Assembly: GCA_018817715.1 (NCBI GenBank)
Contig: JAHITT010000002.1
Coordinates: forward strand, 1-46,330
Source: Patescibacteria group bacterium
Lineage (GTDB): Bacteria; Patescibacteriota; Patescibacteriia; Veblenbacterales; UBA10138
Length of the DNA stretch: 46,330 bases
Reading direction: 5' to 3'
A model generated the notes under the pieces. That model worked only from the letters and a program-made list of their open reading frames with translations. It did no database searches and was not told the origin of the DNA. A program made the position numbers and the translations under genes. This document shows, one piece after another, positions 6,248 to 16,685 of the stretch; the first letter of the stretch is position 1; each line of letters opens with the position of its first letter.

Positions 6248-7552
6248 ATGAAAATTTACGCTGATTTACATATTCATTCCAAATACTCTCGGGCTTGTTC
6301 TAAAGAGCTTACACCCGAGAACATAGATTTATGGTGTCGGATTAAAGGTTTGGGGCTCGTGGCTACTGGCGATTTTACTCATCCTAAATGGTTTAGCGAA
6401 CTTAAGGAAAAGTTGGAACCAGCTGAGGAGGGTTTGTATAAACTTAAATCTAGTTATCAAAAAACCGAGCCATTATTTAAAGAAAAACAAATTCAACCAG
6501 TCAGATTTATGGTGGGTACGGAATTGTCTTGTATTTATAAACATAATGACAAGGTGCGCCGGGTACATCATTGTGTATTTACACCAAGTTTAGAAATTGC
6601 CAGTCAAATAAGCCAAGCTTTGGTAGACAGGGGTTGTAATATAAAGTCTGACGGCCGGCCGATTTTGGGTTTAGCCAGTAAAGAGCTGTTAAAAATTATT
6701 TTAGATATAGATAAACGTAATGTTTTAGTGCCGGCACATATTTGGACACCTTGGTTTGCTGTGTTTGGTTCTAAATCTGGTTATGATAGTTTAGAAGAAT
6801 GTTTTGAAGAATTAGCTGACAAGATATTTGCCGTGGAAACCGGGTTATCATCCGATCCTAAAATGAATTGGCGGGTGCCTAAATTAGACAAAGTAGCACT
6901 TATTTCCAATTCGGATGCGCATTCTTTGCCAAACTTAGGTCGGGAGGCCAATGTTTTTTCTGGAAATAGTTTATCCTACGATAATATTTGGCAAGCAGTT
7001 AAAGAAGTGGCTGTCAAAAATAAAACAGCCAGTTTAGTTTTGGAAAAAACCATAGAATTTTTTCCGGATGAAGGTCGGTATCATTTTGATGGGCATAAAG
7101 ACTGTCAAATATGTTTATCACCCCAGGAAACAAAAAAACAGCAAGGTCTTTGCCCTAAATGTTTAAGACCTTTGACCATTGGCGTGCTAAATAGAGTAGA
7201 GGAGCTGGCTAGTCGTCCAGAGGGTTATCAAACTAATCAACGCTTACCTTATATAAGTTTAGTGGAGTTGGATAAATTAATAGCTGAAGTTTTGGGGGTT
7301 AAGGGTCGACAAAGCAAGAAAGTTGGGGAAATTTATTGGCCTTTAGTGTCGGCTTTTGGCAGTGAGTTAGCTGTTTTATTAAGCAGTTCTGTAGGCGATT
7401 TAAAAAAGATAGCGGGGCCTAATTTAGCTAAGGGGATACAAAATTTACGACAAGGTCGAGTTAGTTTAAGCCCGGGCTATGATGGTGAATATGGTCAGGT
7501 AAGGGTGTTAAGCCAAGCAAAAAAACTTATTAATCAAACCAGTTTGTTTTGA
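6248..7552 (+). CDS. endonuclease Q (PHP-family, deaminated-base DNA repair)
   Basis: This 434-aa protein matches endonuclease Q in length and layout. The N-terminal PHP domain has DLHIHSKYSRA (about 6-16), TGDFTHP (about 40-46), MVGTELSCIY (about 89-98), PAHIWTPWFAVFGS (about 161-174) and SNSDAHS (about 220-226). A C-terminal zinc-binding region has CQIC and CPKC (about 285-308). EndoQ nicks DNA 5' of uracil, hypoxanthine and similar lesions. It is best known in Thermococcales and some methanogens, with scattered bacterial homologues. The gene ends in TGA, followed by a terminator, and is monocistronic as far as can be seen. Confidence 0.85.
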   Translation: MKIYADLHIHSKYSRACSKELTPENIDLWCRIKGLGLVATGDFTHPKWFSELKEKLEPAEEGLYKLKSSYQKTEPLFKEKQIQPVRFMVGTELSCIYKHNDKVRRVHHCVFTPSLEIASQISQALVDRGCNIKSDGRPILGLASKELLKIILDIDKRNVLVPAHIWTPWFAVFGSKSGYDSLEECFEELADKIFAVETGLSSDPKMNWRVPKLDKVALISNSDAHSLPNLGREANVFSGNSLSYDNIWQAVKEVAVKNKTASLVLEKTIEFFPDEGRYHFDGHKDCQICLSPQETKKQQGLCPKCLRPLTIGVLNRVEELASRPEGYQTNQRLPYISLVELDKLIAEVLGVKGRQSKKVGEIYWPLVSAFGSELAVLLSSSVGDLKKIAGPNLAKGIQNLRQGRVSLSPGYDGEYGQVRVLSQAKKLINQTSLF

Positions 7553-7579
7553 GTTTTTTTGTTTAAATTTTTTAAAAGC

Positions 7580-7618
7580 AAAAACCCTGCCCTTTATAAA
7601 AAAGTTGGCAGGATTTTT
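7580..7618. terminator. bidirectional terminator between endoQ and the H1-like gene
   Basis: AAAAACCCTGCC pairs with GGCAGGATTTTT with one mismatch. It is A-rich on the left and T-rich on the right, so it can serve both convergent genes. Confidence 0.65.
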
Positions 7619-7646
7619 GTTGTGTTAGAAAACTTTAGAGAAAGAA

Positions 7647-7781
7647 TTACTTCTTACCCTTTTTAGCCTTCTTGGTGGTCTTCTTGGCCTTCTTAGCTAC
7701 CTTCTTGGTCTTTTTTACAACCTTCTTAGCCACCTTCTTTGTTTTCTTGACAGCCTTCTTGGCTTTTTTCTTCATAGCCAT
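7647..7781 (-). CDS. lysine-rich histone H1/Hc1-like peptide (44 aa)
   Basis: Reading the minus strand from the ATG at 7781 gives a 44-residue protein made almost wholly of Lys, Ala, Val and Thr, in repeats of the type AKKA, VKKT and AKKV, ending GKK. There are no acidic or aromatic residues. This composition matches C-terminal tails of histone H1 and the chlamydial Hc1/Hc2 proteins, which bind and condense DNA or RNA non-specifically. The Shine-Dalgarno GGAGGTGA (about 7787-7794), 5 nt before the ATG, is the strongest in the window and implies high expression. A second ATG two codons in is possible. Some ribosomal proteins have similar tails, but nothing else is attached here. Confidence 0.75.
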   Translation of the reverse strand: MAMKKKAKKAVKKTKKVAKKVVKKTKKVAKKAKKTTKKAKKGKK

Positions 7782-8010
7782 TTGTATCACCTCCTCCCTT
7801 TATTAGAGGTAAGTTAGTCTACTTCTAGTATATATTATTTTTGTTTTTGATAATAGTCTAACTTTTTAATTACTAGAAGAAAAGTTTTTCAACTGATTAT
7901 ATTATAAGAATTATTTTCTAAAGCCGCAAGGGGTAGTTGGTTTTTAAGTTTTTAATTTCTATTTTTATAAAAATAAAACCCCATCGGTTAAGAATGGAGA
8001 ATTTTATAAA

Positions 8011-8060
8011 TGGTGGAGATGAGAGGATTCGAACCCCTGACCCCCGCCTGCCATAGCCTT
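8011..8060 (-). pseudogene. 3' half of an interrupted tRNA-Ala (probably GGC)
   Basis: Minus-strand sequence holds a complete T-arm (agggg, ttcgaat, cctct; 8038-8022), the acceptor strand catctcc (8021-8015), discriminator A and encoded CCA (8013-8011). It also contains TGGCA, which would fit a GGC anticodon. The matching acceptor strand GGGGATG lies at 8226-8220, 160 nt away, and pairs with it with G3.U70, the alanine identity element. Between the halves lie a repeat element and a complete tRNA-Ala(TGC). Either the gene is broken or the precursor is processed in an unknown way. Confidence 0.6.
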
Positions 8061-8131
8061 TGGACCTAGGGAGAATCGAACTCCCACCTGTCGGATGCAA
8101 ACCGACTGCACTACCATTATGCTATAGGCCC
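8061..8131 (-). tRNA. tRNA-Ala (TGC)
   Basis: A full cloverleaf is readable on the minus strand: acceptor gggccta/taggtcc with G3.U70, the tRNA-Ala identity pair; D-arm gcat...gtgc; anticodon stem gtcgg/ccgac with loop tttgcat (anticodon TGC); T-arm gggag-ttcgatt-ctccc. CCA is not encoded, unlike the other tRNAs here. It lies inside the fragments of another tRNA-Ala. Confidence 0.92.
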
Positions 8132-8150
8132 ATAGGTCATGGCGGGCAGG

Positions 8151-8226
8151 TCTAGCCTCAGCCAGAGGCTGATCTCGGCCAAAGGCTGACCAGCCTCTGG
8201 CTGGCGGAAACTTAAGCTACATCCCC
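8151..8226 (-). repeat. D-arm-flanked hairpin repeat, copy A
   Basis: On the minus strand the unit starts with a tRNA 5' end (GGGGATGTAGCT, 8226-8215), continues TTCCGCC, a duplicated inner hairpin (AGCCAGAGGCTGG), then ATCAGCCTCTGGCTGA, and ends GGCTAGA (8157-8151), which resembles the 3' side of a D-arm. It shares TTCCGYC and ATCAGCCTCTGGCTGA with copies at 15939 and 16631. It is about 20 nt upstream of tRNA-Ala(TGC) and is longer than the other copies because of the extra hairpin. Confidence 0.7.
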
Positions 8227-8242
8227 TAAGGTTTTTGATTTA

Positions 8243-8491
8243 TTATTTTAAGCTACCGAATAAAGGAGAGAGTAAGCCTAATAGTAAAGGTTCAAATAAT
8301 CCGGTGATAGTGGCAAAACCTATAATAATCAAGATAAAGCCGATTAATTTGTAAAATAATCTAGAGCCACCATCGCTACCTAAATGCTGTTCAGCCCAGG
8401 CTACTCCACCGAAGTTTCTAATAAGCCATTCGGTTCCCCAAATTAAACCAGCGCCAAGGGCAGTTATTATAGAACCAATAATAATAGGCAT
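8243..8491 (-). CDS. small membrane protein (82 aa)
   Basis: Starting from MPIIIGSIITALGAGL, the product is 82 aa with two hydrophobic helices (about 2-24 and 47-78) separated by a hydrophilic loop containing HLGSDGGSR. The frame stays open further upstream through the tRNA-Val gene, but that extension translates tRNA sequence and is not credible, so I use the ATG at 8491, 17 nt past the tRNA 3' end. No Shine-Dalgarno is evident. I do not recognise the family. It sits between tRNA-Val(TAC) and the repeat/tRNA-Ala block and may share the tRNA transcript. Confidence 0.6.
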   Translation of the reverse strand: MPIIIGSIITALGAGLIWGTEWLIRNFGGVAWAEQHLGSDGGSRLFYKLIGFILIIIGFATITGLFEPLLLGLLSPLFGSLK

Positions 8492-8507
8492 AGAATATTT
8501 GAGAAAA

Positions 8508-8584
<77 letters not shown>

Positions 8585-8606
8585 TGAATTATTAAACAAG
8601 AACCTT

Positions 8607-8693
8607 TGGTGCCCAGGAGAGGATTCGAACCTCCATGGGATTGCTCCCGCTACCACCTCAAGGTAGTGCGTATACCAGTTCCGCCACCTGGGC
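8607..8693 (-). tRNA. tRNA-Leu (GAG)
   Basis: Acceptor gcccagg/cctgggc, anticodon stem ctacc/ggtag with loop ttgaggt (anticodon GAG), a long class II variable arm (cgggagcaatcccat), T-loop ttcgaat and encoded CCA. It is the first gene of the minus-strand tRNA cluster. A weak promoter (TTGGTG, 16 nt, TATCCT) lies just upstream. Confidence 0.95.
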
Positions 8694-8728
8694 TAAATAA
8701 GACTATCTTTTAGGATACTATATTATTT

Positions 8729-8760
8729 TAAAACACCAAAACGAAAATGAGTTGGTGCTT
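8729..8760 (-). terminator. terminator after rplS
   Basis: On the minus strand AAAGCACC...GGTGTTTT forms a hairpin followed by TTTTAAAAT, about 35 nt past the rplS stop codon. Confidence 0.5.
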
Positions 8761-8793
8761 TAAGAGACTTCTTATTAGATAATCAAAAGACTT

Positions 8794-9156
8794 TTAGGAA
8801 ACTTCTTTTAGCTTTTTTTTGTAATCTCTTAAGTAAAATAATTTCGCCCGGTTGGTTTTAAAAGTTTTTAGAACTTCAATATCAGCGATAGTTGGTAGAT
8901 GTAGGGGAAAAATTCTTTCCACACCAACACCGTGGGAAACTTTTCGAACAGTGATAGTAGAATTAGTGCCCAAACCCCCGCGACGACTAAGAACCAAACC
9001 TTCAAATACCTGAATACGTTCTTTTTCTTCGCCTTTGGTGTTAGTTTCCTTTATTTTTTGGTGCACTTTAACCAATTGGCCGGACTTAATATGGGAGAAA
9101 TCTTTTTTCTCTGTCGGGGCAACAGCCTCAGCTGGGACGGTTTTTTGTTCAGACAT
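8794..9156 (-). CDS. rplS: ribosomal protein bL19
   Basis: This 120-aa protein has the bL19 signature: GQLVKVHQKIKE (about 26-37), ERIQVFEGLVLSRRGG (about 46-61), TITVRKVSHGVGVERIFPLHLP (about 67-88) and the basic end RAKLFYLRDYKKKLKEVS. The first 20 residues (MSEQKTVPAEAVAPTEKKDF) are a short extension beyond typical bL19. It binds at the 30S-50S interface. In many bacteria rplS follows trmD; here it is separate, with its own TTGACA promoter in the gap after gmk. Confidence 0.96.
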   Translation of the reverse strand: MSEQKTVPAEAVAPTEKKDFSHIKSGQLVKVHQKIKETNTKGEEKERIQVFEGLVLSRRGGLGTNSTITVRKVSHGVGVERIFPLHLPTIADIEVLKTFKTNRAKLFYLRDYKKKLKEVS

Positions 9157-15938: not shown

Positions 15939-15987
15939 GCTCTAACCTCAGCCAGAGGCTGATTAATCTTTGACGGAAGCTGAGCTA
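15939..15987 (-). repeat. D-arm-flanked hairpin repeat, copy B
   Basis: Minus strand: TAGCTCAG, CTTCCGTCAAAGATTA, ATCAGCCTCTGGCTGA, then GGTTAGAGC. The ends are the two sides of a tRNA D-arm, so the hairpin core sits where the D-loop would be. CTCAG and CTGAG also pair. It lies 31 nt upstream of tRNA-Val(GAC) and overlaps the last codons of the Nudix gene. Confidence 0.75.
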
Positions 15988-16580: not shown

Positions 16581-16630
16581 ATAATATTTATTAAAATTTA
16601 AATCCTTTGGTTTTTATATTTATTATAATG

Positions 16631-16685
16631 TCTAACCTCAGCCAGAGGCTGATCCGTCTTTGGCGGAAGCTTAAGCTACACACCC
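16631..16685 (-). repeat. D-arm-flanked hairpin repeat, copy C
   Basis: Minus strand: GGGTGTGTAGCT (16685-16674, identical to the first 12 nt of the downstream tRNA-Ile), then TAAGCTTCCGCCAAAGACGG, ATCAGCCTCTGGCTGA, then GGTTAGA. The intact tRNA-Ile starts 50 nt further on. The unit therefore looks like a truncated tRNA-Ile copy whose D-loop is replaced or invaded by the hairpin core. Confidence 0.75.

Follow-up and report, generated by a model that had tools for sequence, protein, structure and literature searches.

The window, a 46,330-nucleotide stretch of a patescibacterial genome (G000), contains on its minus strand an intact tRNA-Ala(UGC) gene lying within the remains of another tRNA-Ala gene. 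The inner gene and the two arms flanking it are referred to below as the cassette (108 nt in the window). The locus, read along the minus strand, and the relatives of its hairpin repeat comprise the following features.

8243-8490, minus strand: upstream gene of a small membrane protein of about 82 aa, which defines the orthologous locus in relatives
8211-8226, minus strand: 5' piece of the outer tRNA-Ala, GGGGATGTAGCTTAAG, with the acceptor 5' strand, U8, A9 and the start of the D arm; pairs 7/7 with 8021-8015
8158-8210, minus strand: hairpin-forming repeat within the outer D loop (repeat copy A; inverted repeat I3)
8151-8157, minus strand: GGCTAGA, likely the 3' part of the outer D loop, ending in TAGA
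8132-8150, minus strand: left arm of the cassette, CCTGCCCGCCATGACCTAT, forming a helix with the right arm
8061-8131, minus strand: inner tRNA-Ala(UGC), intact, without encoded CCA (Rfam RF00005, 69.1 bits)
8043-8060, minus strand: right arm of the cassette, AAGGCTATGGCAGGCGGG, forming a helix with the left arm and including the letters TGGCA
8011-8042, minus strand: 3' piece of the outer tRNA-Ala, GGTCAGGGGTTCGAATCCTCTCATCTCCACCA, with the V loop, T arm, acceptor 3' strand and CCA
7979-7999, minus strand: terminator-like stem followed by a T-run, just 3' of the outer CCA (one site; chance expectation 1.2)
C2:16630, C2:15941, C1:99712 and C4:135673: related copies of the hairpin repeat, each beside a 5' tRNA fragment

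Most of this layout had been recognised in the first-pass annotation, made from the letters alone. The outer acceptor strands, GGGGATG (8226-8220) and CATCTCC (8021-8015), do pair at all seven positions with G3:U70, and an acceptor-pair test recovers this pair independently; around the GIY-YIG loci described below the same detection is noisy (null 3/41 tRNAs), and only cases read by hand were used there. The T arm and encoded CCA on the 3' side, the repeat copy within the gene, the complete inner tRNA-Ala(TGC) and the flanks that pair around it are all present as it had described them. These flanks, 8150-8132 and 8060-8043, pair into a helical extension of the inner acceptor stem; the 109-nt piece of arms and inner tRNA has a predicted folding energy of -56.4 kcal/mol (z = -5.1), which none of 200 shuffles equalled. 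All 216 nt of the locus fold as one cloverleaf containing a second cloverleaf, with the outer D loop filled by the hairpin and the outer anticodon arm absent. The terminator-like site after the outer CCA suggests that the nest may be transcribed as a single RNA.

One earlier reading has to be withdrawn. The letters TGGCA, taken for an outer anticodon GGC, belong to the right arm ATGGCAGGCGGG, which is conserved in more than 100 cassettes, also around tRNAs of other isotypes, while the outer gene of this nest has lost its anticodon arm; an outer anticodon GGC is therefore rejected. A tmRNA at the locus was likewise rejected, in ordinary (26.2 bits) and permuted form (22 bits), against a gathering score of 47; the true tmRNA, at C6:268781, scores 90.6 bits.

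The BLAST matches of the hairpin repeat (8210-8158) elsewhere in the genome cluster at four further places. Two of these lie in the window, where the repeat occupies the D loop in 5' fragments of tRNA-Val and tRNA-Ile (15941-15985 and 16630-16684) that are followed downstream by intact Val(GAC) and Ile(TAT) genes; these fragments are probably remnants of nests.

Recurrence of the arms and nesting of the cassettes

A survey of the class, with a pattern consisting of two arms around a T-loop motif, found the arms CCTGCCCGCC…GGCAGGCGGG flanking intact tRNAs in 35 of 286 genomes, against none for the reversed-pattern control. With a stricter arm pattern, a scan of 84,980 species returned 100 stretches, mostly from Patescibacteria of many groups; Bacteroidota accounted for some of the others, and Neomarinimicrobiota and Nanoarchaeota were each the label of a single record. 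Four Bacteroidota loci (L157, L161, L190 and L221) are cognate nests of tRNA-Val or tRNA-Leu, and the title of the L157 record names a strain, Flagellimonas beolgyonensis; the Bacteroidota nests suggest either a spread beyond Patescibacteria or errors in the binning of metagenome-assembled genomes. The complete chromosome CP011216.1 carries a Val(CAC) cassette within a Val(CAC) gene, and no other Val(CAC) was found there.

After the removal of duplicates, 117 distinct cassettes with one intact inner tRNA were obtained, 3 of 120 lacking an intact inner tRNA. They measure 106-150 nt (median 113 nt, n=117), encode no protein, and share their arms and fixed ends across many lineages and 11 tRNA isotypes. 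Thr and Arg together account for 73 of the 117, and anticodons with C34 are over-represented (65/117, 56%, versus 34% in one background genome). The complementarity of the arms is maintained by covariation (0.756 for paired arms versus 0.604 for shuffled ones, with a shuffled maximum of 0.65). The same arms also occur without a tRNA, as dispersed hairpins, in 25 of 144 genomes (control 0). These hairpins lie mostly away from tRNAs, with 3 of 32 examined near one; confinement to tRNA genes is seen in the tRNA-carrying form alone. The cassette thus looks like a hairpin element that holds a tRNA in its loop.

The nesting was examined by cutting each cassette at its fixed ends, joining the flanks and searching for an ARAGORN call across the junction. 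An outer tRNA was called in 39 of the 117 cases, never on the opposite strand; inner and outer genes are thus co-oriented. The anticodons of the two were identical in 31 of these 39 nests, and the other 8 outers were read by eye as the same isoacceptor with damage at the boundary or from decay. When 102 ordinary tRNAs were cut out as a control, 6 junction-spanning calls resulted, none with the same anticodon. In the 31 clean cases the cuts fall after outer nucleotides 21-24 (18 cases), 33-38 (10) and 54-55 (3), that is, in the D, anticodon and T loops, respectively. The sequence TAGA, which ends the likely D-loop segment of the window, is the commonest one ahead of D-loop cassettes (28 of 59). 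Clean nests are exemplified by L130 and L213, while L131 and L292 show repeated nesting.

Although about two thirds of the outers cannot be called, the inner tRNAs are almost always intact, and remnants of the outer are recognisable on both sides in 84 of the 117 nests and on at least one side in 115 (remnant test with a 5% null per side). The median identity of an inner tRNA is 0.79 to its own outer and 0.78 to outers of other genomes. The inner tRNAs, being no closer to their own outers than to foreign ones, therefore look foreign themselves, and duplication of the outer in situ was rejected for the clean cases on this comparison.

The orthologous site and the tRNA genes of the genome

The genome of 872 kb, 99.9% complete and examined via the stretches around its tRNA genes, encodes the usual anticodon set. 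The inner tRNA of the window is the only Ala(UGC) gene found, whereas intact Ala(GGC) (C4:223443) and Ala(CGC) genes are located elsewhere, as is the tmRNA. A separate Ala(GGC) gene, which the first-pass annotation had proposed looking for, is thus present; it had linked such a gene, together with a lack of conservation of the 3' half in relatives, to the locus being a decaying duplicate, but the nest is no private duplicate, since the same layout recurs across the phylum.

The upstream membrane-protein gene is 48-60% identical (tblastn) in four relatives, G002, G005, G006 and G007. The orthologous site is occupied by a plain tRNA-Ala(UGC) of the common type in G005 and G006, and by an unusual type of tRNA-Ala(UGC) (TAGCATAATGG) in the window genome, G002 and G007. 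Outer remnants have been kept in the window genome and in G002, as the remnant of a nest, and are absent from G007. The situation is reversed for Val(TAC), which is nested in G005 and plain in the window genome. Because the site holds a plain Ala(UGC) in G005 and G006, and inner and outer are of one isoacceptor in each of the 39 nests that could be tested, the broken gene of the window was most likely Ala(UGC) itself, a match that is drawn here from synteny and from the other nests, the outer anticodon of this nest being lost. The first-pass proposal of a broken gene whose loss is covered by the UGC isoacceptor holds as to the break, but not as to the identity of the gene as GGC; most likely the inner tRNA is the replacement of the broken gene rather than a separate isoacceptor standing in for a lost GGC gene.

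Other interrupted or duplicated tRNA sequences were seen in these genomes. On a 6.7 kb contig, the anticodon loop of a second tRNA-Glu(TTC) (C3:2122-2312, L009) is interrupted by 117 nt of inserted sequence. Intact Ser(GCT), Lys, Tyr, Leu(TAA), Pro(CGG) and Gln(TTG) genes are followed, at a distance of about 50-190 nt, by copies of tRNA 3' ends, most of which start at the T loop (GAATCC...CCA); the loci are L105, L006, L002, L402, L414 and L409 in the window genome and L085 in G005. Most of the inserts at these loci have a conserved fold that starts with GGATTCGAAGGG, complementary to the T arm, and matched no Rfam family.

Proposed origin and spread of the cassettes

The window probably holds a mobile tRNA cassette that has been inserted into a tRNA gene of the same isoacceptor, destroying and replacing the resident. 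The cassette would be a short inverted-repeat hairpin with a complete tRNA gene in its loop. Its point of entry would be precise, in one of the loops of a resident gene for the same isoacceptor; in the window this was most likely tRNA-Ala(UGC), entered at the D loop. Insertion would inactivate the resident, and the cassette tRNA, co-oriented and hence inside the resident's transcription unit, would take over its role. The resident could then decay, gathering further hairpins and deletions. We infer the horizontal mobility, the transcription from the resident's promoter, the release of the inner tRNA by RNase P and RNase Z, and the identity of the inserting enzyme.

An integrase or an ordinary transposon does not fit what was found, as the cassettes lack room for an integrase gene and plain removal of the cassette restores the outer tRNA in the 31 clean cases, with no target duplication in the form of a flanking direct repeat. 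Insertions of the IS200/IS605 type are precise and produce no target duplication, and the arms resemble REP palindromes, so one might consider hairpins that a Y1/RAYT (IS200-like) transposase mobilises, the tRNA travelling as a passenger. However, a search of the window genome and the seven members of its family (G000-G007) detected no Y1 transposase (PF01797), though nests occur there, and we give this explanation very little credence. It is improbable, too, that the nests arose in two steps, a tRNA-less hairpin having broken a dispensable tRNA gene in whose hairpin loop a foreign cognate tRNA was later captured and selected for restored decoding. The tRNA-less hairpins with the same arms are in keeping with such a course, as is the excess of C34 tRNAs, which are often dispensable; a perfectly rescuing cassette would not need this excess, which counts against the cassette model. 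Nevertheless, two steps would require capture to be repeated exactly in the hairpin loop, in constant orientation, for dozens of combinations of isoacceptor and site, and the Ala(UGC) of the window would as a rule be indispensable.

The nested precursor envisaged in the first-pass annotation was right about the nesting, which is real. A precursor in which the outer tRNA is functional as well, its halves being joined after the release of the inner one in the manner of an intron or a split tRNA, is nevertheless very unlikely. The helix of the arms would keep the halves together, and the joined outer can be called as a tRNA in the 39 nests mentioned; the remaining outers are uncallable, and that of the window has lost its anticodon arm and has a D loop filled by a hairpin. 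Enzymes for splicing went undetected as well: neither the tRNA-splicing endonuclease (PF01974) nor RtcB was matched in the nearly complete window genome, whereas control genomes were matched, and no intron family, group I included, was found among the Rfam matches up to E = 10 in the region 7400-8800. Equally hard to credit is ordinary local decay without a mobile cassette, the fragments on either side of an intact tRNA-Ala being leftovers of a tandem duplication or rearrangement of that gene. Inner and outer genes of the window are both tRNA-Ala, and tRNA fragments are frequent near the tRNAs of this genome, but local decay does not account for ends that are fixed and arms that stay the same across 11 tRNA isotypes and many lineages, nor for inner tRNAs that differ from their own outers as much as tRNAs of different genomes do.

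As to how a replacing cassette would spread, the preferred route is recombination of the homing type, with cognate alleles as its targets; GIY-YIG endonucleases encoded next to tRNA genes might initiate it. Small GIY-YIG genes lie beside a tRNA in 5 of 6 non-UvrC cases in the window genome, in 13 of 29 top hits in relatives and in 8 of 11 other loci, all 8 on the strand of the tRNA. A GIY-YIG gene is present within 800 nt in only 6 of 98 cassette loci, so that the nuclease, unless unrelated, would have to work in trans at most of them. In the composite nests L108 and L112 of the window genome and L278 of G044, it lies between the outer tRNA fragment and the intact cognate tRNA or inside the same nest. 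Small GIY-YIG genes between outer tRNA fragments were also observed at C1:99300-99900 and C4:100120-103326, adjoining intact Pro(CGG) and Ser(GGA) genes. While the replacement is rated high, the homing step is conjectural. A more specific version, tentative and rather doubtful, is that GIY-YIG nucleases cut the loops of standard tRNA genes, into which hairpin cassettes with a diverged, cleavage-resistant tRNA of the same isoacceptor are copied, the element becoming the sole source of an essential tRNA.

Comparison with known systems

Mobile DNA is generally assumed to enter essential genes by splicing out or by restoring one gene end. If the cassette model is true, there would be a third way, in which a tRNA gene is destroyed, a complete cognate replacement is brought in and the host becomes dependent on it, and this would also be a route for the horizontal replacement of tRNAs. 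It could explain the fragments, hairpins and small GIY-YIG nucleases around patescibacterial tRNA genes, whose annotation would hide nested genes, and it yields testable predictions on processing, dependence and cleavage. The accessible literature, which leaves out most subscription journals, yielded no description of a tRNA cassette nested in its cognate tRNA.

Genomic islands and phages integrate at tRNA genes by means of tyrosine integrases and restore one end of the gene through the att site. The cassettes share the target and the restoration of function by a carried-in sequence, but here it is a whole diverged tRNA in a hairpin of 106-150 nt within a loop, with neither an integrase gene nor an att repeat. 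REP and other hairpin elements, to our knowledge, have no tRNA cargo and no matching to a cognate gene, unlike the cassettes. Their likeness, which double-hairpin elements share, is that of palindromic repeats spreading between and into genes; the sponge mitochondrial RHE (PMC2800124) is an example from this group. SegB of phage T4, a free-standing GIY-YIG homing endonuclease in the tRNA region that favours the inheritance of this region, similarly adjoins tRNA genes; however, it is listed with an intergenic tRNA target and without any nested replacement tRNA (PMC2988022), and the linkage in the present case is only partial. The insertion sequences in rRNA genes of CPR bacteria, the same group of organisms, are short uncharacterised inserts at the tops or bases of stem-loops, some with GIY-YIG, but they occupy rRNA sites and bring no replacement gene, and tRNA is not mentioned in the main text of that paper (PMC11270868). 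Group I introns also interrupt bacterial tRNA genes (PMC3984707); they are self-splicing RNAs, whereas no group I core was matched at the window locus. Each of the nearest known systems thus differs from the cassettes in at least one defining feature.
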